Shown here: piece after piece, positions 8,065-40,269 of the stretch
Position numbering within the stretch: the first letter of the stretch is position 1
Layout of the letters: the number at the start of each line of letters is the position of its first letter
Assembly (NCBI GenBank): GCA_903834185.1
Contig: CAILHX010000008.1
Coordinates: 1-64,000 of the forward strand
Reading direction: 5' to 3'
From: an uncultured Methylophilaceae bacterium
GTDB taxonomy: Bacteria; Pseudomonadota; Gammaproteobacteria; Burkholderiales; Methylophilaceae
DNA length: 64,000 nt
Position numbers and translations under genes: made by a program
The notes under the pieces: generated by a model
Told to the model about the DNA's origin: nothing
Seen by the model: only the letters and a program-made list of their open reading frames with translations
Databases searched by the model: none

Positions 8065-8100
8065 AATTTTTAGAACGAATGATCTGGTCTCGCTGTGTAC

Positions 8101-8116
8101 TGGCATGATTAATGCT
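8101..8116 (+). promoter_or_regulatory. Putative sigma-54 promoter upstream of the sensor kinase
   Basis: TGGCATGATTAATGCT matches the -24/-12 consensus TGGCACG-N4-TTGCW with GG and GC at the correct spacing and two mismatches. The A in place of the first T of the -12 half also occurs in the glnA promoter of this window. Transcription would start near 8127, downstream of the ATG at 8112 and upstream of the one at 8202. No GCAC-N7-GTGC box lies upstream, so the activator is unclear. Confidence 0.4.
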
Positions 8117-8201
8117 CGTTTCTAACTTAATACAAAAGCCTGGTGAACAGAATAAGAAATGGCTTGCTTGTAATGATACATCCTTAGAGAACTTTCCAAT
8201 C

Positions 8202-12528: not shown

Positions 12529-12546
12529 GTTGTACAATAAACGTAG

Positions 12547-13104
12547 CTACTTATTCTGCAATCCGTACCAGCCTTGTTGACGCAGGCATAGCAGCAGACC
12601 TCGTGTCACTGCGCGCGCGCCGTTTTGCGGATTCATCACCGGCTGGTTCGCTGCACCCAACGTAGTGACGCATGCGGCAATTGCATCGTCCAGCATGTCC
12701 GCATTACCTCCTCGTTTCCACCACGACCCGATCACGAATTTATCCATCATATCCGCCGGCTTCCTGGGCGCGCTCGATGCGACTGGAAACGCTTCTTGCT
12801 TTGCGCCGGATTCTGCTTTTACTGCAGGCTCAGCTTCAGGTTCAGTAAAGCCCCGGTTGTCGGTATTGGCAAAACTGGTGGCAACCGGGTCGACATCATC
12901 CATTTGCTGCACCACCCAGCCATTTTCCGACATGCATTTTTCGTAAACCGCCCTGTCTCCCCCCTTGCTTTTACATTCCTGCTGCACCTGTTGTAAATCT
13001 ACAACATTCGCACCCCGTTTAAAGGCTAATTCGCCACAGCCGGAAATCAAAATAACAAATAGTGAAATTACAGAAAGACCTGACAACTGTTTAGCAATGG
13101 GCAT
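12547..13104 (-). CDS. Small lipoprotein with duplicated Cys motif, function unknown
   Basis: I do not recognise a characterised family. The 185-residue product starts at ATG 13104 (GAGG 6 bases upstream; the in-frame ATG at 13146 has no ribosome site) with a signal peptide ending in lipobox LISGC. Two Cys-pair motifs stand out: C-x14-C-MSENGW near the N-terminus of the mature protein and C-x24-C-LRQQGW at the C-terminus, suggesting two copies of a disulphide-linked helical hairpin. The 50 or so residues between them are rich in Ala, Glu and Pro and probably disordered. It is transcribed divergently from the porin/urea operon, on the other side of the operator at 13167. Confidence 0.7.
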   Translation of the reverse strand: MPIAKQLSGLSVISLFVILISGCGELAFKRGANVVDLQQVQQECKSKGGDRAVYEKCMSENGWVVQQMDDVDPVATSFANTDNRGFTEPEAEPAVKAESGAKQEAFPVASSAPRKPADMMDKFVIGSWWKRGGNADMLDDAIAACVTTLGAANQPVMNPQNGARAVTRGLLLCLRQQGWYGLQNK

Positions 13105-13166
13105 GATGGCCTCGTAGTGACATGGAAGATGTGTAGATGTTTCCACTAATACACAAACGCCTGATA

Positions 13167-13182
13167 TACGTCATTTAACGTA
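13167..13182. promoter_or_regulatory. TACGT-N6-ACGTA inverted repeat (putative response-regulator operator, copy 2)
   Basis: TACGTCATTTAACGTA has the same perfect arms and spacing as 8021-8036; even the first two spacer bases (CA) agree. A candidate -10 box lies 39 bp from its start, against 38 bp in copy 1. It sits 134 bp before the porin start codon and would control the whole porin-urt-ure run. Confidence 0.6.
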
Positions 13183-13205
13183 TTCCGCAAGCCTCGTGCC
13201 CTCAC

Positions 13206-13211
13206 TAATCT
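13206..13211 (+). promoter_or_regulatory. Putative -10 box of the porin/urea operon
   Basis: TAATCT, 4 of 6 matches to TATAAT, without a consensus -35; its offset from the inverted repeat equals that seen at the sensor-kinase promoter. The leader to the porin start would be about 98 nt. Confidence 0.35.
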
Positions 13212-13315
13212 AGCCCCACTGCTTAAAGCGAGTATGTAAAAAGTCACAACGCAAGAGGTGATAACTGGAAACCTTGCTTTAGGCCAACACTTTTTATCCA
13301 TAAAGGAGTTTTACC

Positions 13316-14482
13316 ATGAAATTAGATGCCACAACATGCGGCGCTCAGATCAATAACGGGCAACGCAAGTGGATGCAGAAGTCCTTTGCAACAGCGGCTG
13401 TCATCTCGGCATGTGCACTTCCATCACTGAATGCCCATGCAGGCGCCACCATTTCATTTGGTGACGATAAGTCGATCAGCGTGGGGTTTGGCATGCGTAC
13501 CAGTTTTACCAGCACCGAAGACGCAGCACCAAATGGGACTTCCCGCTCCGAAAACTTTAGCCTGGACAGCGCACGTATCTTTTTATCCGGTTCGCTGAAC
13601 AAATATATCAAAGGCATGTTCAATACTGAAAAAAGTATTGCCGGGCAAGGGTTTCAAGTGATTGACGCCAACGTGCAATTCGACCTTATGCCTGAGTTCA
13701 ATATCTGGGTCGGCCGCTTCCTGTCACCGAGTGACCGTGCCAATCTGGCTGGACCATATTACTCGCTGGGCGGTGGTTACTGGTCCGGTATCGCCTCGCG
13801 TTACGGTTATAACGGCGGTTATATCGGCCGCGATGATGGCGTAGCAGCAGTGGGCTCTTTATTTGACGGCAAGATTAGCTATTCTGGCGGTGCATTTGAA
13901 GGCAACACCGAGTTCCAGATTGCTCCTGTTACGGTAGGCGTACGCAAGGGTTCTGACGATCTGATGTATGCAGGCAGATTACAGCTCGACTTATGGGATG
14001 CGGAACCAGGTTACTACGGTACAGGCAACTATCTGGGAGGGAAAGACATTCTGGCAGTCGGCGTCGCCGGAAGAACGCAAGGTGGTGGCAGCGTATCTGC
14101 CACCAAAACCGGTGACTACAATTCCTACAGTGTCGATTTTCTTCTGGAAAAGAAAGATATCGGCCCAGGCGCTGTATCAGTTGAAGCCGCTTACTATAAC
14201 TATGACACCGACAATGTGTTCCTGAGCGAACAAGGCAACGCCTGGTCCGCTGGTGCAGGTTATATATTCAATCAGCCAGTAGGTTGGGGCAAGGTACAGC
14301 CTTTTGTCCGCTATCAGGAATTTGATGCAGACAACGCCGTCGACACCAAAAAGTATGACCTGGGTGTTGCATACATCATTGATGGTTATAACGCCCAAGT
14401 CAGCGCCGTTTATTCCAACACTGAAACCACTAAAAAGAGCACCGTCGATGCATTTAACGTTGCTTTGCAGGTTCAGTTTTAA
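13316..14482 (+). CDS. Outer-membrane porin of the urea operon
   Basis: 388-residue beta-barrel protein. Residues 1-42 are a long-n-region signal peptide ending LNAHA; a shorter form could start at the Met at residue 20, but AAAGGAG 7 bases before the ATG at 13316 supports the longer one. The mature protein has alternating amphipathic strands (ISFGDDKSISVGFGMRTSF, FNIWVGRFLSPSDRANLAGPYY) and ends in FNVALQVQF with the terminal Phe recognised by the BAM machinery. It is not close in sequence to the porin at window start. As first gene before urtABCDE it probably passes urea or short amides across the outer membrane (inference from context). Confidence 0.85.
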   Translation: MKLDATTCGAQINNGQRKWMQKSFATAAVISACALPSLNAHAGATISFGDDKSISVGFGMRTSFTSTEDAAPNGTSRSENFSLDSARIFLSGSLNKYIKGMFNTEKSIAGQGFQVIDANVQFDLMPEFNIWVGRFLSPSDRANLAGPYYSLGGGYWSGIASRYGYNGGYIGRDDGVAAVGSLFDGKISYSGGAFEGNTEFQIAPVTVGVRKGSDDLMYAGRLQLDLWDAEPGYYGTGNYLGGKDILAVGVAGRTQGGGSVSATKTGDYNSYSVDFLLEKKDIGPGAVSVEAAYYNYDTDNVFLSEQGNAWSAGAGYIFNQPVGWGKVQPFVRYQEFDADNAVDTKKYDLGVAYIIDGYNAQVSAVYSNTETTKKSTVDAFNVALQVQF

Positions 14483-14514
14483 TGATCCAGTTCTGATTGA
14501 TGGAGCAAACCCGT

Positions 14515-14552
14515 CGCCACGACCTTTGATATAAATGCAATCGCTCGTGGCG
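14515..14552 (+). repeat. Hairpin between porin and urtA
   Basis: Arms CGCCACGA (14515-14522) and TCGTGGCG (14545-14552) are perfectly complementary with a 22-base loop, and the downstream sequence is T-rich but without a clean T-run. It may be a partial terminator or an mRNA 3'-end stabiliser that sets porin and urtA levels apart. Confidence 0.5.
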
Positions 14553-14582
14553 CTCATTAGTTAATTTTTATAGGAGTCACAA

Positions 14583-15848
14583 ATGCAAAACAGTCGTTTC
14601 ATTAAATCTATGACCGTAATTGCCGCCAGTATTGCAATTATGGGAACCAGCCAGATCGCCAATGCAGCTGATACCATCAAGGTAGGTGTGTTGCACTCGC
14701 TGTCCGGCACCATGGCAATATCCGAAACCGCGTTGAAAGAAATGGCCTTGATGACCATAGACGAAATCAACAAAAAAGGCGGCGTTCTCGGCAAGCAATT
14801 GGAGCCGGTGGTAGTCGACCCTGCTTCAGACTGGCCTCTGTTCGCTACCAAGGCTCGGCAATTACTGAGCCAGGATAAAGTTGCCGTCACTTTCGGCTGC
14901 TGGACTTCGGTATCGCGTAAATCGGTTTTGCCGGTATTCAAGGAATTGAACGGTCTGTTGTTCTATCCAGTGCAATATGAAGGTGAAGAGCTGGAAAAGA
15001 ACGTGTTCTACACCGGGGCAGCCCCTAACCAGCAGGCGATTCCGGCAGTGGAATACCTGATGAGCAAAAAAGGCGGTTCCGCCAAGCGTTTCGTGCTGCT
15101 GGGTACCGATTACGTATATCCACGTACCACCAACAAGATTCTGCGCGCCTTCCTGCACTCCAAGGGCATTACTGATGCCGACATCATGGAAGAGTACACT
15201 CCATTCGGTCATAGCGATTATCAAACCATCGTTGCCAACATCAAGAAATTCGCTGCTGAAGGCAAGAAAACCGCCGTGATCTCCACCATCAACGGCGACT
15301 CCAACGTGCCCTTCTACAAGGAACTTGGTAATGCCGGCCTGAAAGCTAAAGATGTGCCTGTCGTGGCATTCTCGGTAGGTGAAGAAGAACTACGCGGTGT
15401 TGACACCAAACCATTGGTAGGTGAGCTTGCTGCATGGAATTATTTCATGAGCGTGAAGAACCCGACCAACGCTGCCTGGATTAAGGAATGGTCCGAATAT
15501 GCCAAGGCTAAGAAATTGCCGACCGCAGACAAGCCTTTGACCAACGACCCGATGGAAGCAACTTACATTGGTATCCATATGTGGGCGCAAGCGGTTGAAA
15601 AAGCCAAAAGTACCGACACCGACAAAGTGATCGCTGCCATGGCGGGTCAGACCTTCAAGGCACCAGATGGTTTTGTCGTCGAAATGGATCCGAAGAATCA
15701 CCACTTGCATAAGCCGGTGATGGTGGGCGAAGTGAAGGCCGATGGTCAGTTCAATGTCGTTTGGAAGACCCCGGGCCCGATCAAGGCTCAACCATGGAGT
15801 CCATATATCGAAGGCGACGACAAGAAGCCTGATGAGCCTGTCATGTAA
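14583..15848 (+). CDS. urtA: Urea ABC transporter, substrate-binding protein
   Basis: Periplasmic binding protein of the high-affinity urea transporter, 421 residues. The signal peptide ends near ANAAD (residue 29), and the mature protein begins TIKVGVLHSLSGTMAISE, the standard start of the Peripla_BP_5 (branched-chain amino acid/urea) type I fold. Urea-type signatures include VTFGCWTSVSRKSVLPVFKELNGLLFYPVQYEG and the later NDPMEATYIGIHMWAQAVEKA. A TAGGAG ribosome site precedes the ATG. Length and order (urtA first of urtABCDE) fit the family. Confidence 0.95.
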   Translation: MQNSRFIKSMTVIAASIAIMGTSQIANAADTIKVGVLHSLSGTMAISETALKEMALMTIDEINKKGGVLGKQLEPVVVDPASDWPLFATKARQLLSQDKVAVTFGCWTSVSRKSVLPVFKELNGLLFYPVQYEGEELEKNVFYTGAAPNQQAIPAVEYLMSKKGGSAKRFVLLGTDYVYPRTTNKILRAFLHSKGITDADIMEEYTPFGHSDYQTIVANIKKFAAEGKKTAVISTINGDSNVPFYKELGNAGLKAKDVPVVAFSVGEEELRGVDTKPLVGELAAWNYFMSVKNPTNAAWIKEWSEYAKAKKLPTADKPLTNDPMEATYIGIHMWAQAVEKAKSTDTDKVIAAMAGQTFKAPDGFVVEMDPKNHHLHKPVMVGEVKADGQFNVVWKTPGPIKAQPWSPYIEGDDKKPDEPVM

Positions 15849-15890
15849 TTATTGTTTGCGGTTTATATCTTATAGACTGTAACTTGCACA

Positions 15891-15915
15891 CCGCTACGAA
15901 GACACTTCGTAGCGG
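15891..15915 (+). terminator. Strong hairpin between urtA and urtB (attenuator-like)
   Basis: CCGCTACGAAG, a 3-base loop ACA and CTTCGTAGCGG form a perfect 11-bp stem 42 bases after the urtA stop. The following bases are TTCCTTG, not a full U-run, so it is likely a leaky terminator or RNase barrier that keeps urtA message more abundant than the membrane subunits. It lies upstream of the preferred urtB start at 15980. Confidence 0.6.
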
Positions 15916-15979
15916 TTCCTTGAAAGAAGCTCTGAAAGAAATCGTGAAAGCTAACCGAATCATAAACAAGTTGAATTGC

Positions 15980-17584
15980 ATGATCATTTCGGATATCAGA
16001 ATCAAAAAATATTTAGTCTCGCTGCTATTGTTCGGCATAACATTCGCACAGCAGGCGATGGCACTTACCCCGGCACAGCAGATCAGTCTTGCCACAGGCG
16101 ATAACGACCCCAGAATCGCGGCATTGAGTCACGTCTCTGAATTGGGCGACGTGTCAGCCGTAAATTTTTTACAAGCCTTGCTGGATGACAAAGTCAAAAC
16201 CAAAGGCAATGCAATCTACATCGTTGATGACACCACAGTCACCGATGCCCTCACAGGCAAAGCAACCACTTTGCCTGATGCCGTAGACGACGTGGTCAAT
16301 AACAACCAGATGAGAGATGAGCTGAGCGCCACCATCGCCTCTCTCAATCTATTATCCAAAGACAGCAAAGTCCGGCTGGACGCTGCCAAATCGCTATTGG
16401 GTACAGACCCTAGCGCAGGCCGCTTGACCTTGATCAAGAAGGTTGAAAAAATCGAAACCGAATCCACCATCAAGGACATACTGGAACAGGTAAGCGCCAG
16501 TATCGAAATCACCGACAACGACAAGGCCGTGCGCATGGCTGCCGTCAAGGAATTGGGCGATAGTGCCAATCCCAATAACAAGGAAATCCTGTCCAGCCGC
16601 CTTGAGGCAGATGGCGAGGCCGACCCTGAAGTCAAGGCCGCTATCCGGCTGGCGCTGAGATCCATAGAAAGCAATATGGCGATCTACGACAAGATAGGGC
16701 AGGTATTTACCGGCTTGAGTCTGGGCAGCATCCTGTTACTGGCAGCGTTGGGACTCGCTGTCACCTACGGGCTGATGGGAGTCATCAACATGGCGCATGG
16801 CGAAATGATGATGATAGGGGCCTATGCCACCTATCTGGTGCAGGACATTTTCCAGCACTATATGCCCAACTATTTCCAGTGGTATCTGCTGCTTGCGGTT
16901 CCATTCGCCTTCCTTGTCACGGCGCTGGTCGGGGTGATACTGGAAAAGCTGGTGTTACGTCATCTATATGGACGTCCACTGGAAACCCTGCTGGCGACCT
17001 GGGGGGTCAGCCTGATGCTGATGCAAGGTGTACGCAGCCTATTTGGCGCGCAAAACGTGTCGGTAGAGAATCCCGCATGGATGTCCGGCAGCTTGCAGCT
17101 CACTGCGAATCTGATCCTGCCCTACAATCGAATTTTCATCATCGTGTTTGCGATGCTGGTGTTGATGATGCTGTGGCTGATGATCACCAAGACCCGTCTT
17201 GGATTATTCATCCGCGCCGTTACCCAGAATCGTGGTATGGCAAGTTGCACCGGCGTGAATACCAGCAAGGTGGATGCATTGGCTTTCGGCTTGGGTTCAG
17301 GCATCGCCGGTTTGGCAGGCGTCGCATTATCGCAGATCGGTAACGTCGGTCCGGCGCTTGGACAGAGCTATATCGTCGACTCATTCATGGTGGTAGTGCT
17401 GGGCGGTGTTGGTCAACTGGCTGGAGCGGTCTATGCAGCACTAGGCCTGGGCATAGTCAGCAAATTTCTGGAAGGCATCGCAGGCGCGGTGCTGGCCAAG
17501 ATATTCGTGCTGGTGATTATCATCATCTTTATCCAGAAGCGACCACAAGGCTTATTCGCTTTCAAAGGCAGGTCTCTTGATTAA
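15980..17584 (+). CDS. urtB: Urea ABC transporter, permease UrtB
   Basis: Inner-membrane permease, 534 residues from the ATG at 15980. The frame is open back to a TTG at 15884, but that region holds the attenuator hairpin and no conserved sequence. Residues 1-28 are a signal peptide (LVSLLLFGITFAQQAMA). About 28-225 is a periplasmic domain with helical repeats, typical of UrtB and absent from LivH. From about 230 the LivH-like permease begins (GLSLGSILLLAALGLAVTYGLMGVINMAHGEMMMIGAYATY), with the conserved EAA-like region VDALAFGLGSGIAGLAGV. It pairs with UrtC. Confidence 0.92.
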   Translation: MIISDIRIKKYLVSLLLFGITFAQQAMALTPAQQISLATGDNDPRIAALSHVSELGDVSAVNFLQALLDDKVKTKGNAIYIVDDTTVTDALTGKATTLPDAVDDVVNNNQMRDELSATIASLNLLSKDSKVRLDAAKSLLGTDPSAGRLTLIKKVEKIETESTIKDILEQVSASIEITDNDKAVRMAAVKELGDSANPNNKEILSSRLEADGEADPEVKAAIRLALRSIESNMAIYDKIGQVFTGLSLGSILLLAALGLAVTYGLMGVINMAHGEMMMIGAYATYLVQDIFQHYMPNYFQWYLLLAVPFAFLVTALVGVILEKLVLRHLYGRPLETLLATWGVSLMLMQGVRSLFGAQNVSVENPAWMSGSLQLTANLILPYNRIFIIVFAMLVLMMLWLMITKTRLGLFIRAVTQNRGMASCTGVNTSKVDALAFGLGSGIAGLAGVALSQIGNVGPALGQSYIVDSFMVVVLGGVGQLAGAVYAALGLGIVSKFLEGIAGAVLAKIFVLVIIIIFIQKRPQGLFAFKGRSLD

Positions 17585-17605
17585 GGCTAAGGAATTAAAT
17601 AAAGC

Positions 17606-18748
17606 ATGAAACTCACCTCTCTTTCCGGGCTGTATGATTCCAAATCCTGGATGTACCTGGCGTTAGCCACTTTTGTGCTTTGCATCGTGATCCCGGCATC
17701 CAACATGTTGCTGCCCAGCACCAGCATATTGCACATTTCGGACTACTCGGTCTCTCTGAGCGGCAAGATACTGTGTTACGCCATCGTCGCTCTTGCCATT
17801 GATCTAGTATGGGGCTACACAGGCATTCTCAGCCTGGGGCATGGGGTTTTCTTTGCCTTGGGAGGCTATGCTTTCGGTATGTATCTGATGCGTCAGATAG
17901 GCACCGACGGCAGTTATCACAGCAACCTGCCAGACTTCATGGTATTCCTGGACTGGAAAAAATTCCCGTGGTATTGGCAATTCACCGACCACTTCTGGTA
18001 TGCGATGTTGCTGGTGGTGCTGGTACCCGGCGTACTGGCGTTCATCTTCGGCTATTTCGCATTCCGTTCGCGCATCAAGGGGGTGTATTTCTCCATCATC
18101 ACCCAGGCCATGACCTATGCTTTCATGCTGCTGTTTTTCCGCAACGAGACCGGTTTCGGCGGCAATAACGGTTTCACCGATTTCAAACGTCTGTTGGGCA
18201 TCAATGTCACTACGCCGCAGATGCGTATGGTGTTGTTCGTCATCACCGGACTGACCTTGATCTCACTATTATTGGTGTCGCGTGCGATTGTCAGCTCAAA
18301 ATTCGGCCGGGTGCTGACTGCCATTCGCGATGCGGAATCACGTTTGATGTTTTCCGGCTACAACCCGTTGCACTACAAACTGGCGATCTGGACTTTCTCC
18401 GCCATGGTATGCGGTATTGCCGGTGCACTGTATGTGCCGCAAGTAGGCATCATCAACCCGAGCGAAATGTCGCCCGGCAACTCGATCGAAATTGCGATCT
18501 GGGCTGCGGTGGGCGGCCGAGGGACATTGATCGGACCATTGATCGGTGCTGGCGTAGTCAACGGTTTGAAAAGTTATTTCACCGAAGCCTTCCCAGAATA
18601 CTGGCTTTACTTTCTGGGCTTGATATTCATTTTAAGCACATTGTATTTACCACATGGCGTGGTGGGGTTGATCAACAAGATCAAAGCGAAAAAGCTGGCT
18701 AAATCTGCAACATCCGCCTCTGCATCAGTACCATCGGAGCCTGCATAA
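17606..18748 (+). CDS. urtC: Urea ABC transporter, permease UrtC
   Basis: Second membrane subunit, 380 residues, LivM family. About ten membrane segments are visible, with the family motif GYTGILSLGHGVFFALGGYAFGMYLM near residues 69-94 and the C-terminal coupling region KLAIWTFSAMVCGIAGALYVPQVGIINPSEMSP and AVGGRGTLIGPLIGAGVVN. The lysine/alanine/serine-rich tail is cytoplasmic. Its stop codon overlaps the urtD start (TAATG), so translation is coupled. Confidence 0.93.
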   Translation: MKLTSLSGLYDSKSWMYLALATFVLCIVIPASNMLLPSTSILHISDYSVSLSGKILCYAIVALAIDLVWGYTGILSLGHGVFFALGGYAFGMYLMRQIGTDGSYHSNLPDFMVFLDWKKFPWYWQFTDHFWYAMLLVVLVPGVLAFIFGYFAFRSRIKGVYFSIITQAMTYAFMLLFFRNETGFGGNNGFTDFKRLLGINVTTPQMRMVLFVITGLTLISLLLVSRAIVSSKFGRVLTAIRDAESRLMFSGYNPLHYKLAIWTFSAMVCGIAGALYVPQVGIINPSEMSPGNSIEIAIWAAVGGRGTLIGPLIGAGVVNGLKSYFTEAFPEYWLYFLGLIFILSTLYLPHGVVGLINKIKAKKLAKSATSASASVPSEPA

Positions 18749-19572
18749 TGACTGAGAATACAGGCCAGGCTTCAGCAGTCTCAACCGGAATGGCTACCGG
18801 GCATTTATTGCAGCCCGGAGTACTCGATACTTCGCATGGCGTAGTGTTGTATATGGAAGAGATTACCGTCAGCTTTGATGGCTTTCGCGCATTGAATAAA
18901 TTGTCGCTGTCGATTGATGTGGGCGAGTTACGCTGCATCATCGGTCCTAACGGTGCGGGAAAAACGACTTTACAAGACGTGATTACCGGCAAAACTCGCC
19001 CGGACAGCGGATCGGTGTATTTTGGTCAGACCCTGAATTGCGCCAAAATGACCGAGCCGGAGATCGCCCATGCAGGCATAGGCCGCAAATTTCAGAAACC
19101 AACGGTATTCGAGAACCATACTGTATTCGAAAATCTGGAGCTGGCGATCAAAGCGGACAAAGGAGTATGGAACTCGTTATTCGGCAAAATGACAGGCCAG
19201 CAACATGACCGCATTTCGGAAATACTGGAAACCATCAATCTTAAGGCCTTGTACCACACGCGCTCAGGTCTACTCTCTCATGGCCAGAAACAGTGGCTGG
19301 AAATCGGCATGCTGCTGGCGCAGGAACCCAGACTGCTATTGCTGGACGAACCAGTGGCAGGCATGACCGATCACGAAACCGAACGTACCGCAGAGTTGCT
19401 GAATAGTCTGGCAGGCAAGCACTCACTGATGGTGGTTGAGCACGACATGGACTTCGTGAATAGCATTGCGCGTAAAGTAACGGTGTTGCATCAGGGCAGC
19501 GTACTGGCAGAAGGCACCATGGATCAGGTGCAGAACAATGAGCAAGTCATAGAAGTTTATCTTGGCAGATAG
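18748..19572 (+). CDS. urtD: Urea ABC transporter, ATPase UrtD
   Basis: LivG-type ATPase, 274 residues. Walker A GPNGAGKTT lies near residue 68, the signature region is LLSHGQKQWLEIGMLLAQEP (SHGQ in place of SGGQ, normal for UrtD), and Walker B is LLLLDEPVAGMTDHE, with VVEHDMDFV as the H-loop. About 33 residues precede the ABC domain, more than in LivG. It forms a heterodimer with UrtE beneath UrtB/UrtC. Confidence 0.94.
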   Translation: MTENTGQASAVSTGMATGHLLQPGVLDTSHGVVLYMEEITVSFDGFRALNKLSLSIDVGELRCIIGPNGAGKTTLQDVITGKTRPDSGSVYFGQTLNCAKMTEPEIAHAGIGRKFQKPTVFENHTVFENLELAIKADKGVWNSLFGKMTGQQHDRISEILETINLKALYHTRSGLLSHGQKQWLEIGMLLAQEPRLLLLDEPVAGMTDHETERTAELLNSLAGKHSLMVVEHDMDFVNSIARKVTVLHQGSVLAEGTMDQVQNNEQVIEVYLGR

Positions 19573-19589
19573 GGCGCGCTAGGCATCAT

Positions 19590-20288
19590 ATGTTAGAAAT
19601 TAAGACGATCAATCAATTTTACGGCGGCAGCCAGATCCTGCGCGATGTATCGCTGTCAGTTCCAACTGGCGCATGCACTGTGTTACTCGGTCGCAACGGC
19701 GTAGGCAAAACTACGCTGATCAAATGCCTGATGGGGGTGCTGCCGGTCAAAACCGGACAGATCATCCTCGACGGCAAAGACATCACCACACTCAAACCCT
19801 ATGCCCGGGCCAGTCTGGGTATGGCATACGTCCCGCAAGGCCGAGAGATTTTTTCGCGGCTGACAGTGGAAGAGAATCTGTTGATGGGTTTGTCCGTGCT
19901 CAAAGGCAAAGCAGCCAGCAAGATTCCCGAGGATGTGTACGAGATGTTCCCGGTGCTCAAGGAGATGTTGCACAGACGCGGCGGTGACCTCTCAGGCGGT
20001 CAGCAACAGCAACTGGCAATCGCACGCGCTCTCGTGGCACGGCCCAAGGTATTGATACTGGATGAGCCTACCGAAGGCATACAACCCTCCATCATCAAGG
20101 ATATAGAACGTGTGATCAGAACCTTGTCCGAACGGGGCGATATGGCGATCTTTCTGGTGGAGCAGTATTACGATTTTGCGCAATCACTCGCCGACCACTA
20201 TCTGGTAATGTCGCGAGGCCAGGTGGTTAAAAGCGGTATGGGCGCGGATATGGAAAAGGACAATATACGTAATTTCGTGGCACTATGA
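19590..20288 (+). CDS. urtE: Urea ABC transporter, ATPase UrtE
   Basis: LivF-type ATPase, 232 residues. Walker A LGRNGVGKTTLIKCLMG near residue 33, signature LSGGQQQQLAIARALVARP, Walker B VLILDEPTEGIQPSI and H-loop FLVEQYYDF are intact. It is the fifth and last transporter subunit; ureD begins 4 bases after its stop, so transporter and urease genes appear to share one transcript. Confidence 0.95.
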   Translation: MLEIKTINQFYGGSQILRDVSLSVPTGACTVLLGRNGVGKTTLIKCLMGVLPVKTGQIILDGKDITTLKPYARASLGMAYVPQGREIFSRLTVEENLLMGLSVLKGKAASKIPEDVYEMFPVLKEMLHRRGGDLSGGQQQQLAIARALVARPKVLILDEPTEGIQPSIIKDIERVIRTLSERGDMAIFLVEQYYDFAQSLADHYLVMSRGQVVKSGMGADMEKDNIRNFVAL

Positions 20289-20292
20289 TGCC

Positions 20293-21186
20293 ATGCAATC
20301 GCTGCCTATAACCAAAACGGCTGACGCTGCCAATGACCCGTCGACCGACGCTGATATAGCAGGACGTAACGGCTGGTTAGCTCACCTTGAACTGGGGTTC
20401 GTGGCTGTCGATCAGCGTAGCGTTCTTGCGAGACGCCGCCACAAGGGCCCGCTCGTCGTGCAAAAATCGCTGTACCCTGAAGGCTCGGGCATTTGCCATG
20501 CCATTATCGTGCACCCGCCCGGAGGTATTGCCGGAGGCGACCGGCTGCAACTGGATGTGAATGTGGGTATGAATGCCCACGCGCTATTGACCACCCCAGG
20601 GGCAGGCAAGTGGTACAAAGCCAATCATGAACAGGCAAGTCAGCAACTGGGATTCAAGGTGGCACAGGATGCCGTGCTGGAATGGTTCCCGCAGGAAACC
20701 ATCCTGTTTGACGCTGCACGGGCCAAACTGGAAACGCGCATTGAACTCACAACGAATGCGGTGTATGCAGGATGGGAGATCACCTGTTTCGGGCGCCAGG
20801 CTGCAGGAGAGCGTTTTCAACAGGGGACATTGTTGCAACGCACGCAACTTTATCGCGATGGCAAAAGAATCTGGGCAGAGTTCGCCGATCTGCAGGCAGG
20901 AAACGCATTGATGGATTCGGCGGTTGGTTTGAATGGGGCAACGGTAAACGCTGGCATGCTCATTGCTGCTGGCATAGTACCTGCAGAAGTGCTGGAAGCC
21001 TGCCGTGCCATCAAGCCCGAAGACAGCGCAGCAATCGGCGTGACCGCACTTCCGGAGATATTCGCCGCACGCTATCTGGGCATGAGTCCAGAGCATGCAC
21101 GACATTATTTTGAGTCCATATGGTCTATCGTGCGTCCCTGGTATGCCGGAGTGCAATCTAAACGACCGCGCATATGGAATACTTAA
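20293..21186 (+). CDS. ureD: Urease accessory protein UreD
   Basis: 297-residue scaffold protein of the urease activation complex (UreD/UreF/UreG), which delivers nickel to apo-urease. Family features: GWLAHLELGFVAVDQRSVLARRRHKGPLVVQKSLYPEG at about 20-57, HPPGGIAGGDRLQL, TTPGAGKWYKA, and the C-terminal LGMSPEHARHYFESIWSIVRPWYAG. It starts the ureDABJCEFG set. Confidence 0.94.
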   Translation: MQSLPITKTADAANDPSTDADIAGRNGWLAHLELGFVAVDQRSVLARRRHKGPLVVQKSLYPEGSGICHAIIVHPPGGIAGGDRLQLDVNVGMNAHALLTTPGAGKWYKANHEQASQQLGFKVAQDAVLEWFPQETILFDAARAKLETRIELTTNAVYAGWEITCFGRQAAGERFQQGTLLQRTQLYRDGKRIWAEFADLQAGNALMDSAVGLNGATVNAGMLIAAGIVPAEVLEACRAIKPEDSAAIGVTALPEIFAARYLGMSPEHARHYFESIWSIVRPWYAGVQSKRPRIWNT

Positions 21187-21208
21187 GGGATATGCATAAA
21201 GGTAAAGC

Positions 21209-21511
21209 ATGGAACTGACACCTAGAGAAAAAGATAAGCTGTTGATCTTCACTGCCGGCCTGGTGGCCGAGCGACGCAAAGCACGCGGACTCAAGCTCAA
21301 TTATCCGGAAGCAATCGCTTACATTTCCGCCGCCATCATGGAAGGCGCACGCGACGGAAACACTGTGGCCGAGCTGATGGATTTCGGTACTACCTTGCTG
21401 ACGCGTGATGACGTGATGGAAGGCGTACCGGAAATGATCCCGGAAATACAGATCGAAGCGACATTCCCGGATGGCACCAAACTGGTCACCGTGCACCACC
21501 CTATTCCTTAA
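21209..21511 (+). CDS. ureA: Urease gamma subunit
   Basis: 100 residues, the usual length for Ure[41 protein letters not shown], then [48 protein letters not shown]. It is part of the (alpha-beta-gamma)3 urease that hydrolyses urea to ammonia and carbamate. AAAGG lies just upstream of the ATG. Confidence 0.97.
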
Positions 21512-21524
21512 GGACAACAAAACC

Positions 21525-21830
21525 ATGATTCCGGGCGAAATGCTGATAGAACCAGGCGAGATCGAATTGAACGCAGGCCGAGCCAAAGTGGAACTGCAAG
21601 TCTCCAATACCGGTGACCGCCCGATACAAGTCGGTTCGCATTACCACTTTTTTGAAACCAACGATGCGCTCAGTTTTGAGCGGCAAAAGGCCTACGGATA
21701 CCGTCTGGATATCGCAGCCGGAACCGCAGTTCGTTTCGAGCCGGGACAAACGCGCACAGTCAGGCTGGTCGATCTTGCCGGAGAACGCAAAGTCTATGGC
21801 TTTGCCGGCAAGGTGATGGGCCCATTATGA
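21525..21830 (+). CDS. ureB: Urease beta subunit
   Basis: 101-residue Ure[33 protein letters not shown], and [31 protein letters not shown]. The frame stays open upstream, but the ATG at 21525 with AAGGA before it gives the standard N-terminus. The stop overlaps an ATG of the next frame by 4 bases. Confidence 0.97.
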
Positions 21831-21853
21831 ATCATCTAAAACGGAGAATGAAT

Positions 21854-22414
21854 ATGAACAAACGAATACTACTGGCAACACTGCTGTTACTTCCAATCAC
21901 GGCGTTCGCGCATCCGGGTCACGGCGCGCACGGACTGATGGATGGCTTTATTCATCCGTTCAGCGGCTGGGATCACTGCATAGAGATGATGGCGGTCGGG
22001 TTGTGGGCTGCCATGGCAAAAGGCAAGAATCAGGTTGCGATAATGGGTGGATTTCTCGCTGGTATGCTGTTGGGCGGAGTACTGGGGATGAGTTACGCAG
22101 TGCCTGGATATATTGAAACTGCGGTAGCTGCCACCACTCTTGCTGCCGCATTGCTGGTGGTACTGGCCTTGCGCCTGCCGGTCATGGTGCAAGTCGGGCT
22201 GACGGTATTGTTTGCAGTCACGCACGGCCTCGCACATGGTGCGGAACTGCCACACGCAGCAAGTGCGCTTAGTTATGGCCTTGGCTTCATGCTGGCAAGC
22301 TCGATTTTATTAAGTACAGGCTGGGCCATCGGACGCAAGTTGGGCTCGGAGCCCCGTCAACGCAAGCTGGGGCTGTTGCTTGCAGTAGTTGCTGGCGGCT
22401 TTATCGCTTCCTGA
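21854..22414 (+). CDS. ureJ: HupE/UreJ family nickel-permease-like protein
   Basis: 186-residue membrane protein. The signal segment [24 protein letters not shown] is followed by [27 protein letters not shown], the HupE/UreJ hallmark with His-rich metal-binding positions ([15 protein letters not shown]), and five further hydrophobic helices including [12 protein letters not shown]. The family is thought to supply nickel to hydrogenase or urease. In-frame ATGs occur at 21827, 21848 and 21854; GGAG is best spaced for 21854. Placement between ureB and ureC is common in Betaproteobacteria. Confidence 0.88.
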
Positions 22415-22424
22415 GGCTATTCAA

Positions 22425-24128
22425 ATGGCGAACAAGATTTCACGACAAGCCTATGCCGAAATGTTCGGCCCCACCGTGGGTGACAGGGTCAGATTAGCCG
22501 ATACCGACCTGTGGGCGGAAGTAGAACGCGACTACACTGTTTACGGCGAAGAAGTGAAATTCGGCGGCGGCAAAGTGATACGCGACGGCATGGGCCAAGG
22601 GCAGTTATTGTCGGCTCAGGTCGCTGATACTGTGATCACCAACGCCCTGATCATAGACCACTGGGGCATCGTCAAAGCCGATATCGGCATCAAGAACGGC
22701 TACATTTCCGCCATAGGCAAAGCCGGCAACCCCGACATCCAGCCCGGAGTAACGATACCGATTGGTGCTGGCACCGAGATCATCGCCGGCGAAGGGATGA
22801 TCATTACTGCCGGCGGTATAGACACCCACATTCATTTTATCTGTCCGCAACAGATAGACGAAGCACTGATGTCCGGGGTGACTACCATGCTGGGTGGCGG
22901 CACCGGGCCAGCGACAGGCACTTTTGCCACCACCTGCACGCCGGGGCCGTGGCATATTCATCGCATGTTGCAAGCGGCTGATGCGTTCCCCATGAATCTG
23001 GGATTCCTGGGCAAGGGTAACGTCAGTTTGCCGGAACCGTTACGCGAACAGGTTGCTGCCGGAGCCATAGGTCTGAAACTGCATGAAGACTGGGGCACCA
23101 CCCCTGCTGCTATCGACAACTGCCTCAACGTGGCCGAAGAAACCGATGTGCAGGTCGCCATCCATAGCGATACTCTGAACGAATCCGGCTTTGTGGAAAC
23201 CACACTGGCCGCGTTCAAGGACAGAACCATCCATACCTTCCATACCGAAGGTGCAGGCGGCGGACATGCTCCTGACATTATCAAGGCTGCAGGTTATGCC
23301 AATGTGCTGCCGTCTTCCACCAACCCTACCCGGCCCTACACCGTCAACACCATAGACGAACATCTGGATATGCTGATGGTGTGTCACCATCTGGATCCTG
23401 CCATTGCTGAAGACATCGCTTTCGCCGAAAGCCGTATTCGCCGGGAAACCATCGCGGCCGAAGATATTCTGCATGACCTCGGCGCATTCTCCATGATGTC
23501 GTCGGACTCACAAGCGATGGGGCGTGTAGGCGAAGTGATCATTCGCACCTGGCAGACCGCACACAAAATGAAGAATCAGCGCGGCGCACTTGTGGGCGAC
23601 ACGGCACGCAATGACAATTTCCGTATCAAACGTTACATTGCCAAATACACGATTAACCCGGCACTGACGCATGGCATTGCGCATGTGGTGGGCTCGATTG
23701 AAGTCGGCAAGCTGGCCGATCTGGTGGTTTGGCGGCCTGCATTCTTCGGGGTAAAACCTTCGCTCATCATCAAAGGCGGCATGATCGCTGCCGCGGCGAT
23801 GGGCGACCCCAACGCATCCATCCCCACGCCGCAACCCGTACATTACCGCCCCATGTTCGGCGCTTTTGGTGGCGGACTGAAGACTTCGGTGACGTTCGTC
23901 TCGCAGCTGGCGCTGCACAACCCCGAAGTCGCTGCGCTCAATCTCGCCAAGCCGGTGATAGCAGTCAAAGGCACTCGCACAGTAAAAAAAGCCGACATGA
24001 TACACAACGATTACCAACCCAAAATCGACGTTGATCCGGAAACTTATCTGGTGAAGGCGGACGGCGTGTTATTAACCTGTGAGCCCGCTTCCATCCTGCC
24101 CATGGCACAACGCTACTTTTTATTCTGA
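22425..24128 (+). CDS. ureC: Urease alpha subunit (catalytic)
   Basis: 567 residues, exactly family length. The active site is complete: HIHFICPQQ provides nickel-binding His residues, Lys218 in GLKLHEDWG is the carbamylated bridge, and His321 in CHHLDP is the catalytic flap histidine. The start is [29 protein letters not shown]. The open frame extends upstream into ureJ, but the ATG at 22425 has GAGG at the right distance. It hydrolyses urea in the cytoplasm, releasing ammonia for glutamine synthetase. Confidence 0.98.
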
Positions 24129-24622
24129 TGCTTGCCATCTACCTCAAATTGGCTACGACCAGCCCCTGTCAGGACAAGCTGGTGCTGCCTTTTGACCGCC
24201 GACAGAAAAGTCGGCTTAGGGTACGTCTGGAATCGGGCGAGGAAGCTGGCTTGATGCTGGAACGCGGCACCATTCTGCGCGGCGGCGATTGCCTGCAGGC
24301 AGATGATGGTCGCGTGATTCTGGTGGTTGCCGCCGACGAGCCGGTGCTGCATGTCACTGCCGACACCCCCCAGCAACTGGCGCGTGCAGCCTATCATCTC
24401 GGCAACCGCCATGTGCCGTTGCAAGTGGGTGAAGACTGGTTACGCCTGGAGCAGGATCATGTACTCAAAGAGATGATCCTGGGTTTGGGCGTGAATGCAG
24501 TTGAACTCTCCAGTCCTTTTGAGCCGGAAGCCGGTGCCTACGGCGGTGGTCATCGCCATCAGCATGACGACGACGCCTCCGCGATACGCCCGCCTGCACA
24601 TTTGAGAAAACACCGTGCTTGA
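24128..24622 (+). CDS. ureE: Urease accessory protein UreE (nickel chaperone)
   Basis: 164-residue metallochaperone. N-terminal peptide-binding domain about 1-75 (DRRQKSRLRVRLESGEEAGLMLERGTILRGGDCLQADDGRVILVVAA), central metal-binding domain with AYHLGNRHVPLQV, and a His/Asp-rich tail (GGGHRHQHDDD near 140-150) that binds extra nickel. The ATG overlaps the ureC stop (TGATG), indicating coupling. Confidence 0.95.
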   Translation: MLAIYLKLATTSPCQDKLVLPFDRRQKSRLRVRLESGEEAGLMLERGTILRGGDCLQADDGRVILVVAADEPVLHVTADTPQQLARAAYHLGNRHVPLQVGEDWLRLEQDHVLKEMILGLGVNAVELSSPFEPEAGAYGGGHRHQHDDDASAIRPPAHLRKHRA

Positions 24623-25298
24623 ACAGGTAGCCCTGTCCCGTTTGTTGCAACTCGCCAGCCCCTTGCTGCCGGTGGGCGCTTACAGTTATTCGCAAGGCCT
24701 GGAATGGGCGATAGAAGACGGCACGGTACATGATGCCGCCACTGCCGAACGCTGGATCAGCGATGTACTGGATTTCTATCTGTGCCGTTTCGAATTACCT
24801 TTGCTATGGCGCATGCGGCAAGCCTGGGATGACAGTGATGACGCGGCACTCTCCGAATGGAACAGCCTGTTCTGCGCCGGGCGCGAAACCGCAGAAGCCA
24901 GAGCAGAAAGCTTACAGATGGGTTATTCGCTGGTGCGTCTGCTCAAAGACCTGGAGGGTTTTGATGATGGTGTGCTGCAACGCCTGACGAGTATCACACC
25001 CGCCAGCTTTCCGTTGGCCTATGCCTGTGCTGCCGGGGTGTGGCAAATCCCGGCAATCGCCAGTATGCAGGCCTACGCCTGGTCATGGGCGGAAAATCAA
25101 GCGAGCGCCGCAATGAAAACCATTCCACTGGGACAGGTTGCAGGGCAGCGCATGTTGCTGGCGCTAGGGCAGCATATTGCGACAGCGGTGCAAGCTGCCT
25201 GCGAGTTACACGACGACCAGCTATGCAACTTTGCGCCCGGCCTGACGCTGGCAGGCTGCCGGCATGAAACTCAATACAGTCGATTATTCAGGTCGTAA
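24615..25298 (+). CDS. ureF: Urease accessory protein UreF
   Basis: 227-residue helical protein that bridges UreD and UreG and gates GTP hydrolysis during nickel insertion. Typical segments: LLQLASPLLPVGAYSYSQGLEWAIEDGTV, ETAEARAESLQMGYSLVRLL and the C-terminal KTIPLGQVAGQRMLLALG. The start is GTG at 24615, overlapping the ureE end by 8 bases. Confidence 0.94.
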   Translation: MLEQVALSRLLQLASPLLPVGAYSYSQGLEWAIEDGTVHDAATAERWISDVLDFYLCRFELPLLWRMRQAWDDSDDAALSEWNSLFCAGRETAEARAESLQMGYSLVRLLKDLEGFDDGVLQRLTSITPASFPLAYACAAGVWQIPAIASMQAYAWSWAENQASAAMKTIPLGQVAGQRMLLALGQHIATAVQAACELHDDQLCNFAPGLTLAGCRHETQYSRLFRS

Positions 25299-25307
25299 AG
25301 GAATTTT

Positions 25308-25958
25308 ATGAACAACCTCACTATCAGCAGTTCCGCCAAAAACATTACCGATGAACCGTTACGAGTCGGCATAGGCGGTCCGGTCGGCTCGGGCAAGACT
25401 GCACTGACATTATCGCTATGCCGCCGCTTGCGTGATATCTACAACATTGCGGTGGTCACTAACGACATCTACACCAAGGAAGATGCCGAGTTCCTTACCC
25501 GTAACGAGGCATTAGTGCCTGAGCGCATTATCGGCGTTGAAACCGGCGGCTGCCCGCATACTGCGATACGCGAGGATGCTTCGATGAATCTGGAAGCAGT
25601 TTCACAGTTATGCGCCCGCTTTGAGAAACTCGACATCGTGTTTGTGGAAAGCGGTGGCGATAATCTTGCCGCAACCTTCAGCCCGGAACTGTCCGATCTG
25701 ACGATTTACGTGATTGACGTGGCTGCAGGCGAAAAGATCCCGCGTAAAGGCGGCCCCGGCATTACCAAGTCGGACTTGCTGATCATCAATAAAATAGACT
25801 TGGCACCCATGGTGGGAGCATCGCTGGAAGTCATGGAACGCGATGCAAAACGCATGCGCGGTGAACGGCCTTTCATCTTTACCAATCTGAAAACCGGACA
25901 AGGTCTGGAAACCATCGTCAGCTTTATTGAGACACAAGGTCTGGTAAAGCCACGCTAA
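25308..25958 (+). CDS. ureG: Urease accessory protein UreG (GTPase)
   Basis: 216-residue SIMIBI-class GTPase that powers nickel loading. P-loop [11 protein letters not shown] at about residues 24-34, the Ni-binding CPH motif in [30 protein letters not shown] and the GTP-specificity NKID motif are all present. It is the last gene of the urease operon; no terminator follows within about 200 bases, the next being at 26161. Confidence 0.97.
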
Positions 25959-25995
25959 TCACGGCAGCTCCTGACGCACGAATAAAATATCTCGC

Positions 25996-26010
25996 GCACT
26001 TGGTTTGTGC
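25996..26010. promoter_or_regulatory. Putative NtrC-binding box after ureG
   Basis: GCACTTGGTTTGTGC has the GCAC-N7-GTGC form seen twice upstream of glnA in this window. Its centre lies about 110 bp upstream of the start predicted from the sigma-54 element at 26087, the usual enhancer distance, and the DNA between them (26030-26086) is very AT-rich as at IHF-bent promoters. Confidence 0.5.
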
Positions 26011-26086
26011 GGCAGCCTGATCTTCCCCTATGATTCAATTGCCAATTAAATTAATAATAAATTGTTTATTAAAACAATTTAATAAC

Positions 26087-26102
26087 TGGCATAGCTATTG
26101 CT
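26087..26102 (+). promoter_or_regulatory. Putative sigma-54 promoter of an intergenic small RNA
   Basis: TGGCATAGCTATTGCT fits TGGCACR-N4-TTGCW with only C6 changed to T. GG and GC are at the -24/-12 spacing, placing +1 near 26113. It is downstream of ureG and points towards a terminator and a convergent gene, so it cannot serve a protein gene. Confidence 0.55.
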
Positions 26103-26112
26103 TTATAACAAT

Positions 26113-26183
26113 CAGTATTGTATCAACCGCAGTATCTTGTTCAAAAAACTCCAATCTCCACGAGCCTTCGGGCTCGTTTTTTT
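26113..26183 (+). ncRNA. Predicted nitrogen-regulated small RNA, about 71 nt
   Basis: The stretch from the predicted sigma-54 start to the end of a strong intrinsic terminator has no coding frame worth the name and no gene beyond it on this strand. The 5' 48 nt are largely unstructured, ending in CTCCAATCTCCA directly before the terminator stem. This CU-rich segment contains AUCUCC, complementary to GGAGAU ribosome sites such as those of glnA and fdsA. Existence and targets are predictions; the promoter, box and terminator are what the sequence shows. Confidence 0.45.
26161..26183 (+). terminator. Intrinsic terminator
   Basis: CGAGCC, TTCG tetraloop, GGCTCG, then seven T. A textbook terminator; it would end the predicted small RNA and any read-through from the urease operon. 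Confidence 0.9.
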
Positions 26184-26204
26184 ATGCCTGTTTTATCCCG
26201 GTTC

Positions 26205-27587
26205 TTATCCCTGAGTCTGAATCAGCAGCAAGGCTGCTTGTTCGTCCCAATCATGCAAATCAACCTTGAGCAGCACCACTGCTTCCTCAGCCAGCACTAC
26301 CGCTTCTCTGACACCCCGTACCATAGCCAGCTGCTGCGCCAGCGTCTGGGCAGCGCCAGCATTCAACTCACTATCCAGATGGAACATGCGGCTTTTAACC
26401 GCCATAGGCGCTTTCATACCCAGCGCCAGATATAGCCAATAAGCCATCAGCACGCTGCAGAACACAAACACCATAGAAGGACCAAAATAGTGCGACAACG
26501 ATCCGCCGATCAGGCCTCCCAGAGCAAGACCCAGCGACTGTGTGGTGTTATATACACCGATCGCCGTGCCTTTACTGGCGACGGGTGCTATCTTGGTAAT
26601 CAGAGAGGGCAGGCTGGCTTCCAGTACATTGAAGGCCACAAAATACAGCGTCAGGGAAGCGACGATGCCCCAGAAATGCTCGATGGAAGCTGCAAAAAAT
26701 AGTTGCGCCACCAGCATGACGACGATGGCGGCAACGAACACCTGCTTCAATTTTGCTTTTTTCTCCCCATATATGATTGCAGGGACCATCAGGATGAATG
26801 ATATGAACATGATCGGTAGATACACCTGCCAGTGGTGGTTCACATCCAGTCCTCCCGCCTTTTCCAGCGCGAACGGCACCACGATGAACATCGCTGTTTG
26901 AGCAGCATGCAGTGCGAAAATGCCGAAATTCAAACGTAGCAGTTGCGGGTTCTGCAGCACTTCTTTCAACTTGCCTGCACTGGCTTGCGCATCGGAATGA
27001 AAGTGACTGACGGCAGGATCCGGGATCACGAACCGAACCACCAGCATCGCCAGTAAAGCTAATATGCCGGTCAGCCCAAAAATTCCGGTCAGGCCTATCC
27101 ATTGCCCCAATGCAGGGCCTGCGACCAAAGACAGGGCGAAAGTCACGCCTATGGTGCCGCCTATCATCGCCATTGCTTTGGTACGGTGTTCTTCACGGGT
27201 CAGGTCGGCCACCAGTGCTGTGACAGCGGCTGAAATGGCGCCCGCACCCTGAATCGCGCGGCCGAGGATGATGATGTAGATATTATCTGCCGTCATCGCA
27301 ACAAAGCTGCCTAGGGCAAACAATAACAGCCCGAAATAGATCACGCGCTTGCGGCCATAGCGGTCGGAAGCAATGCCGAAGGGCAACTGCAGCAGCGCCT
27401 GCGTCAAGCCGTATGCGCCAAGAGCAAGGCCGATGAGTGTGTGGTCCGCCCCGCCTGGCATCTTTGCTGCATAGATAGCAAAAATGGGCAGAATCATGAA
27501 CATGCCCAACATGCGCAGGCCATAAATCGAGGCCAAACTCATGCTGGCACGAAGTTCCAGTGGGGTCATTTTTTCGGACAATTGCAT
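26205..27587 (-). CDS. MFS transporter, YajR-like
   Basis: 460-residue major facilitator with twelve membrane helices (GLRMLGMFMILPIFAIYA first) and the loop motif GIASDRYGRKRVIYFG (motif A). About 60 residues follow the last helix, ending in a small alpha/beta domain (TLAQQLAMVRGVREAVVLAEEAVVLLKVDLHDWDE) that resembles the ferredoxin-like C-terminal domain of E. coli YajR. The drug-efflux family suggests a proton-coupled exporter, substrate unknown. It is divergent from uvrA; together with ssb these genes form a conserved betaproteobacterial neighbourhood that is split here by the urea island. Confidence 0.85.
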   Translation of the reverse strand: MQLSEKMTPLELRASMSLASIYGLRMLGMFMILPIFAIYAAKMPGGADHTLIGLALGAYGLTQALLQLPFGIASDRYGRKRVIYFGLLLFALGSFVAMTADNIYIIILGRAIQGAGAISAAVTALVADLTREEHRTKAMAMIGGTIGVTFALSLVAGPALGQWIGLTGIFGLTGILALLAMLVVRFVIPDPAVSHFHSDAQASAGKLKEVLQNPQLLRLNFGIFALHAAQTAMFIVVPFALEKAGGLDVNHHWQVYLPIMFISFILMVPAIIYGEKKAKLKQVFVAAIVVMLVAQLFFAASIEHFWGIVASLTLYFVAFNVLEASLPSLITKIAPVASKGTAIGVYNTTQSLGLALGGLIGGSLSHYFGPSMVFVFCSVLMAYWLYLALGMKAPMAVKSRMFHLDSELNAGAAQTLAQQLAMVRGVREAVVLAEEAVVLLKVDLHDWDEQAALLLIQTQG

Positions 27588-38686: not shown

Positions 38687-38701
38687 GCACGTGATTGGTG
38701 C
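38687..38701. promoter_or_regulatory. NtrC-binding box 1 upstream of glnA
   Basis: GCACGTGATTGGTGC: GCAC-N7-GTGC dyad, close to the NtrC consensus TGCACY-N5-GGTGCA. Centre about 126 bp upstream of the predicted sigma-54 start. Confidence 0.75.
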
Positions 38702-38716
38702 AGAAAAATTTTGGTT

Positions 38717-38731
38717 GCACTTTATTGGTGC
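38717..38731. promoter_or_regulatory. NtrC-binding box 2 upstream of glnA
   Basis: GCACTTTATTGGTGC, 30 bp centre-to-centre from box 1 (about three helical turns), so both face the same side of the DNA, like the paired enhancer sites of enterobacterial glnA. Confidence 0.75.
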
Positions 38732-38859: not shown

Positions 38860-40269
38860 ATGGCAGTCGCTGACGTAATGAAAATGATCAAGGACAACGA
38901 TATTCGTTTCGTTGACTTTCGCTTCACTGACACTCGCGGTAAGGAGCAGCACGTGAGCGTGCCAGTTTCTGCCTTCGATGAAAAAAAGTTTACCGAAGGG
39001 CACGCATTTGACGGCTCTTCCATCGCCGGCTGGAAAGGCATCAACGCTTCTGACATGCAACTGATGCCTGACCCGGATACGGCCAACATCGATCCTTTTT
39101 TCGATGAACCAACGCTGATCCTGACTTGCGACGTGCTCGAACCGGAAACCGGTGAAGGCTATGACCGCGACCCACGCTCCATCGCCAAGCGCGCAGAGGC
39201 CTACCTCAAATCATCCGGCATTGGCGACACCGCCTACTTCGGCCCGGAACCAGAATTCTTTATTTTCGACTCCGTAACATGGAGTGCCGACATGTCCGGC
39301 AGTTCAGTCAAGATCAATGCCGATGAAGCTGCATGGGCTTCAGCCAACATAATAGAAGGTGGTAATATCGGTCACCGTCCTGCCGTCAAGGGCGGCTATT
39401 TCCCGGTTCCTCCTGTGGATTCACTGCAGGATATCCGTTCTGCCATGTGTATCGCACTTGAAGAAATGGGCGTACCCGTTGAAGTGCACCACCACGAAGT
39501 GGCAACTGCAGGACAGTGTGAAATCGGCACCCTGTTTTCTTCCCTCACCAAGCGTGCCGACTGGACGCAGATCCTGAAATATGTGGTATTGAACGTTGCA
39601 CATCAGTATGGCAAGACGGCTACTTTCATGCCTAAGCCTATCGTTGGCGACAACGGCTCCGGCATGCATGTGCACCAATCCATCTGGAAAGATGGCAAGA
39701 ATCTCTTTGCAGGCAATGGCTACGCAGGACTGAGTGACTTTGCACTATATTACATAGGCGGCATCATCAAGCACGCACGTGCACTGAATGCCATCACCAA
39801 TCCTGGCACCAACTCTTACAAGCGTCTTGTTCCAGGCTTCGAGGCTCCAGTGAAACTGGCCTACTCTGCCCGTAACCGTTCGGCTTCTATCCGCGTACCT
39901 TATGTACAGTCAGACAAGGCGCGTCGTATCGAAGCACGCTTCCCTGATCCTATCGCCAACCCATATCTGGCTTTCTCTGCATTGATGATGGCCGGTCTCG
40001 ATGGCGTGCAAAACAAGATACATCCTGGCGAACCAGCGACTAAAGACCTCTACCATTTGTCGCCTGAAGAAGATGCACAAATTCCAACCGTATGTTCCAG
40101 CCTTGAGCAGGCACTGGAATATCTGGACAAGGATCGCGAGTTCCTCACCCGTGGCGGCGTGTTCTCAAACGATATGCTTGATGCCTATATTGAGCTGAAA
40201 ATGCAGGAAGTTACGCGCTTCCGCATGACCACGCATCCAATTGAGTTTGATATGTACTACAGCTGCTAA
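38860..40269 (+). CDS. glnA: Glutamine synthetase type I
   Basis: 469-residue GSI-beta type enzyme condensing ammonia and glutamate to glutamine. [29 protein letters not shown], the ATP/Glu-binding [17 protein letters not shown]-type region and [11 protein letters not shown] are intact, and Tyr398 in KDLYHL is the adenylylation site used by GlnE. AGGAGATAC precedes the ATG. It is followed by its own terminator, so ntrB/ntrC need their own promoter or read-through. Confidence 0.98.

Follow-up and report, generated by a model that had tools for sequence, protein, structure and literature searches.

The 246-bp gap at 25959-26204 between ureG (plus strand) and a convergent MFS transporter gene (minus strand) of an uncultured Methylophilaceae bacterium contains an NtrC-type box, a near-consensus sigma-54 promoter and an intrinsic terminator, and the likeliest reading of this arrangement, which we favor on balance, is a free-standing small RNA (sRNA) gene of the NtrC regulon that responds to nitrogen limitation. 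To our knowledge, few sRNAs controlled by NtrC and sigma-54 have been described, and in the open-access literature searched we found none at a urease locus or in the Methylophilaceae. Coordinates refer to the window, the whole stretch of DNA that was analyzed (bases 1-64000 of contig 8; the genome comprises 2.18 Mb in 56 contigs), and the features considered here are:

25308-25958, plus strand: ureG, last gene of the urt/ure cluster (Pfam cobW/UreG domain)
25996-26010, no strand: NtrC-type box GCACTTGGTTTGTGC (GCAC-N7-GTGC), an exact dyad
26011-26086, no strand: AT-rich spacer between box and promoter (74% A+T; fold)
26087-26102, plus strand: sigma-54 promoter TGGCATAGCTATTGCT (strict pattern match)
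26113-26183, plus strand: predicted sRNA of ~71 nt, inferred from promoter and terminator
26115-26135, plus strand: 5' hairpin of the predicted RNA, 7 pairs and a 7-nt loop (fold)
26136-26159, plus strand: single-stranded stretch with A6 and CUCCAAUCUCC, candidate pairing region (unpaired in the fold)
26160-26183, plus strand: intrinsic terminator ACGAGCC-TTCG-GGCTCGT with T run, presumably shared with the ureG operon
26205-27587, minus strand: convergent MFS transporter gene (Pfam MFS_1), which closes the gap
38687-38731 (38687-38701 and 38717-38731), no strand: two NtrC boxes of glnA, the in-genome comparator
38860-40269, plus strand: glnA (TIGR00653, above cut-off)
40806-41891, plus strand: ntrB (NF008293, above cut-off)
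41888-43282, plus strand: ntrC (TIGR01818, above cut-off)

An earlier, sequence-only reading of this DNA had reported a box, a sigma-54 promoter and an intrinsic terminator in this order in the gap between ureG and the MFS gene, and our analysis confirms that all three are present where it placed them. The promoter is a top-scoring sigma-54 site, the terminator consists of a stem-loop followed by a T run, and the two glnA boxes to which the gap box had been likened are real (starting at 38687 and 38717) and of the same form. The proposed distance of ~110 bp from box to start also holds when measured from the center of the box to the predicted start at 26113. The spacer is AT-rich over its 76 bp, as had been observed, but the suggestion of an IHF-assisted promoter is not supported, as the spacer contains a single one-mismatch IHF site, at chance frequency, and none above chance. 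A 10-bp inverted repeat (26058-26067 and 26072-26081) is also found in the spacer.

Across the genome, few boxes pair with a strong sigma-54 site, and since these pairs include glnA and an AmtB-like gene, the gap promoter is, judged from its sequence and its company, very likely a genuine NtrC/sigma-54 promoter. Genome-wide, 19 sites match the strict sigma-54 pattern, roughly half of them intergenic, whereas the reversed control pattern is matched once, and the GCAC-N7-GTGC box occurs at 37 places versus 17 in the control, which indicates that about half of the box matches are background. When a box-promoter pair is defined as a sigma-54 site with a score of 14 or more at 40-220 bp from a box, seven of the 37 boxes have a partner, where ~0.85 would be expected from random window positions (2.3% of which reach this score); at a score of 14.5 or more, there are 3 of 37 against 0.2 expected. 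The non-coding pairs comprise both glnA boxes, the AmtB-like gene, a porin-like gene, one uncharacterized gene and the ureG gap, with the names AmtB-like and porin-like read from translated sequences and glnA, ntrB and ntrC assigned by NCBIfam. Box and promoter are spaced 91 bp start to start in the ureG gap, within the 69-123 bp of the intergenic set, and at glnA 77 bp separate the second box, counted from its start, from the sigma-54 site TGGCACGTTTTATGCT. A point against the sRNA reading is that only one box is visible in the ureG gap, where glnA has two. The gap thus has two features expected of an NtrC/sigma-54-dependent sRNA, a sigma-54 promoter before a noncoding stretch and an NtrC-type enhancer in the range of about -100 to -150 (here centered at about -110). 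The genome encodes rpoN and five strong sigma-54 activators, one of which is the NtrC of the window. Elsewhere in the genome, the box and sigma-54 pairs at contig 13:5093-5231 (uncharacterized ORF) and contig 15:10109-10233 (porin-like ORF) are likely NtrC targets. Urea uptake is often under NtrC control, and the stretch directly before the urt operon start at 14583 (14380-14583) has neither an NtrC-type box nor a good sigma-54 site.

With the convergent neighbors, the gap promoter has no protein to serve. The predicted start at 26113 follows from the -12 rule, counted from the -12 GC at 26100-26101, and the predicted RNA has neither an ATG nor a GTG; its two TTG codons are followed by no stop before the terminator, and a hidden peptide was rejected, as both TTG frames stay open through the terminator. 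Because no usable frame lies between promoter and terminator, the only product would be a noncoding RNA of ~71 nt; the corresponding claim of the sequence-only reading thus follows from the anatomy of the gap, with transcription itself a prediction. The RNA is predicted to be laid out as a 5' hairpin, an unpaired stretch with A6 and CUCCAAUCUCC (the latter at 26149-26159), and the terminator. Its fold (26113-26185) reaches -16 kcal/mol (z -3.6) and is more stable than 200 of 200 shuffles; most of this energy is contributed by the terminator, and the 5' hairpin without it has -3.8 kcal/mol (z -2.3).

The unpaired segment had been proposed to pair with GGAGAU ribosome-binding sites. This motif does precede the start codon of glnA and of the gene starting at 34473 (minus strand), and the complementarity exists, but it is unspecific, with 86 of 200 shuffled segments equally good. 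Over 60 predicted starts in the window, the mean pairing of the segment does not exceed that of its own shuffled versions; among these starts glnA ranks 5th and the gene at 34473 ranks 7th. Specific targets in the window were rejected on these grounds, and CUCCAAUCUCC is a generic anti-Shine-Dalgarno segment, so that target claims are suggestive only.

Comparison with known systems reveals likenesses in design. NrsZ of Pseudomonas is an intergenic sRNA produced under nitrogen limitation in dependence on NtrB/NtrC and RpoN (review PMC8395346), and the ureG RNA resembles it as an intergenic sRNA predicted to be made by NtrC and RpoN. NrsZ, however, is ~226 nt long and processed, lies behind ntrC and is conserved among pseudomonads, whereas the ureG RNA would be ~71 nt long, lies behind ureG and occurs in one genome. 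A search of Rfam with 25940-26220 at E-values up to 5 matched no relevant family, and homology to NrsZ was found neither by locus nor in this search. GlnZ of enterobacteria is an NtrC-regulon sRNA that RNase E releases from the 3' UTR of the glnA mRNA (PMC9731577); the likeness here is a noncoding arm of the NtrC regulon that ends in an intrinsic terminator downstream of a gene for nitrogen metabolism, but GlnZ is cut from the glnA mRNA and the ureG RNA is preceded by its own sigma-54 promoter. As far as these comparisons reach, the ureG RNA is a homologue of neither. Similarly, the RF02278 "toxic small RNA" family consists of double-hairpin sRNAs whose CU-rich parts cover ribosome-binding sites (PMC5688073; PMC11722255), and its members in Burkholderia, as well as S17 of Bordetella, are likewise short and betaproteobacterial, with a CU-rich single-stranded stretch and a terminator hairpin. 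The fold of 26113-26185 has the two hairpins and CU-rich unpaired stretch of this family, which is a likeness in general architecture only, and the RF02278 model does not match the ureG RNA (25940-26220, up to E 5). S17 has a housekeeping-sigma promoter and undergoes RNase E processing (PMC11722255), in contrast to the sigma-54 promoter of the ureG RNA.

The arrangement behind ureG is absent from 30 ureG loci in the family, of which those in forward orientation, such as L004, L005, L015, L021, L026, L027, L030 and L031, are the informative ones. Box, promoter and terminator are likewise not combined at any of 80 named ureG loci. DNA searches with the gap in 187 genomes of the family and 399 of the order, which are independent of locus orientation, returned promoter or terminator snippets only, with the promoter 16-mer TGGCATAGCTATTGCT recurring centrally in family matches that lie before other genes. 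The ureG of this genome is 87-92% identical to that of other family members, in which it is mostly followed by a hupE/ureJ-like gene and otherwise by other genes. The check for conservation in relatives that keep ureG, as proposed by the sequence-only reading, is therefore negative where applicable, but it is not decisive, as the gene behind ureG is different there. From the genomes searched, the putative ureG-gap RNA is known from one genome only.

In two genomes of the same genus no ureG was found, and ssb directly follows the MFS gene. In the window, the ssb-like gene is at 7416-7883, ~18 kb from the MFS gene across the urt/ure block, so that compared with the same-genus genomes the stretch 7416-26204 places ~18 kb with the urt/ure cluster between the two. 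This split of the ssb-MFS adjacency marks the gap as a rearrangement junction. Within the cluster, Rfam RF02514 (5' ureB sRNA of Helicobacter) matches 22580-22861 (minus strand) with 119.9 bits, antisense to a urease subunit gene; as the family is itself antisense to a urease gene, this match probably reflects conserved coding sequence.

To assess how readily such a gap arises by chance, we used 5000 dinucleotide shuffles of its 246 bp as a null model. An equally good sigma-54 site appeared in 2 of the 5000, a GCAC-N7-GTGC box in 14, a comparable terminator in 1, and box and promoter together in none; multiplying the two motif frequencies gives a joint chance of ~1e-6 per such gap. In the 64-kb window, neither the sigma-54 pattern nor the box is significantly over-represented by itself, and what gives them weight is therefore their joint occurrence. 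The terminator speaks only weakly for an sRNA, since one would be expected in any case where the ureG operon ends. An ordinary operon end that happens to carry promoter-like and box-like letters would fit the lack of enrichment of either motif, the background-like half of the genome's box matches and the absence of conservation of the element, but it has to contend with the joint probability and with the fact that boxes paired with promoters elsewhere in the genome are found at NtrC-type genes, and we consider it highly improbable.

A weightier alternative, though in our estimation rather unlikely, is that the promoter is or once was functional and yields a short transcript without a role, left behind by insertion of the urt/ure block or by loss of a downstream gene, with transcription ending at the operon terminator. 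The rearrangement junction and the lack of conservation are consistent with such a relict, as is a locus elsewhere in the family (L036) where the same promoter 16-mer, with a box GCACTCAATTTGTGC similarly far upstream, serves a response-regulator-like gene. Aligned to the gap with the promoter masked, this locus scores 135, where the best of 100 shuffles reaches 121, a marginal result for AT-rich DNA, and descent of the gap from the promoter of this gene was rejected, the alignment being marginal only. Against a relict, every element from box and promoter to structured RNA and terminator is intact and near consensus, a quality that would have been lost in an old relict. Less probable still is that the RNA is cut from the mRNA of the ureG operon, as the NtrC-regulon sRNA GlnZ is released by RNase E from the 3' UTR of the glnA mRNA (PMC9731577), with the sigma-54 promoter as a second, nitrogen-controlled source. 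As the ureG stop is followed by no terminator before 26160, the operon mRNA probably does include the sequence of the predicted RNA, but the near-perfect promoter of its own makes processing unnecessary for expression, and the gap has no known processing site. Finally, the stop of the MFS gene lies on the opposite strand 22 bp past the terminator, where readthrough would give an NtrC-induced RNA antisense to the 3' end of that gene; given a strong terminator with a 7-bp GC-rich stem, tetraloop and T run, we rate this lowest among the explanations considered.

Under the favored reading of a free-standing sRNA gene, we infer that during nitrogen limitation phosphorylated NtrC would bind the box at 25996-26010, loop across the AT-rich spacer and activate sigma-54 RNA polymerase at 26087-26102. 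Transcription would begin near 26113 and end at 26183, and the resulting RNA of ~71 nt would most likely act in trans, its single-stranded CUCCAAUCUCC covering ribosome-binding sites so that a set of mRNAs would be repressed.

That such a design is in use in the lineage is indicated by a second sigma-54 promoter in this genome, which has nothing but a short CUCC RNA and a terminator downstream of it. It belongs to a family found by looking for CUCC..UCUCC downstream of a sigma-54 promoter, a search that returned the ureG locus and one other family member. The motif of the latter, TCTCCAA-N-TCTCCTCC, occurs in 72 of 187 genomes of the family and 13 of 24 genera, compared with a handful of matches for its reversed control. 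In 66 of 68 loci it is preceded at 31-37 nt by TGGCA(C/T)-N6-TGC(T/A), with TGGCA and TGC invariant, and in 68 of 68 it is followed by a T run; a control stretch upstream of the 68 loci has no such sigma-54 promoter. The neighbor is glgA at 67 of 69 loci and glyA at the other 2. Moreover, the terminator stem shows compensatory changes in 8 of 8 pairs, with the CUCC core invariant. The conserved sRNA (loci L080/L206, L203-L231 and L284-L323) is ~55-60 nt long, with a sigma-54 promoter, the core UCUCCAA...UCUCCUCC and a terminator, and its only copy in this genome lies in a convergent gap at contig 35:73339-73401 (locus L080/L206, taken as 73316-73401). Nine members, including this copy, matched no Rfam 15 family at threshold, and the nearest were sub-threshold matches of RF02278 and RF02837 to a glyA-linked copy.

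An NtrC-type box is mostly absent before this sRNA family. The glyA-linked variant of one genus (L208 and L209) has one-mismatch boxes (GCAC-N7-ATGC) ~97 bp before the promoter and is a candidate for a second NtrC/sigma-54 CUCC sRNA. For the glgA-linked sRNA in one genus (L213-L216), a dyad AAACTGTT-N10-AACAGTTT lies ~100 bp upstream of the sigma-54 promoter and is a candidate site for the activator of that sRNA.

The ureG RNA shares with the glgA-linked sRNA the genome, a sigma-54 promoter, CUCC next to the terminator and a convergent gap, but the UCUCCAA/UCUCCUCC core and 5' hairpin of the latter are absent from it. A covariance model of the family (R1) scores the ureG region at 8.2 bits, which is chance level in 64 kb, compared with 59.8 for the glgA copy, and membership of the ureG RNA in the glgA-linked family was rejected on this score and the missing core. 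A match of the model at 62773, at the end of an rpsU-like coding frame, was likewise dismissed as chance. In other families of the class, R1 matches short CUCC RNAs (L237, L238, L241, L250 and L252). At several of these loci a sigma-54 site of the form TGGCAC-N6-TGCA is located 75-85 nt away from the center; these RNAs are possibly convergent or related.

The glgA-linked sigma-54 sRNA, common to at least 13 genera, is the stronger discovery of the two. We tentatively raise the idea, for which we would claim no better than limited plausibility, that this genome, and perhaps the family, has dedicated sigma-54 to switching short anti-Shine-Dalgarno (CUCC) RNAs, a conserved one behind glgA and lineage-specific ones under NtrC, the ureG RNA among them. 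If this is true, nitrogen starvation would lower the translation of chosen mRNAs through such a switch, and the ureG RNA, if real, would tie the urea and nitrogen response of this methylotroph lineage to translational control.
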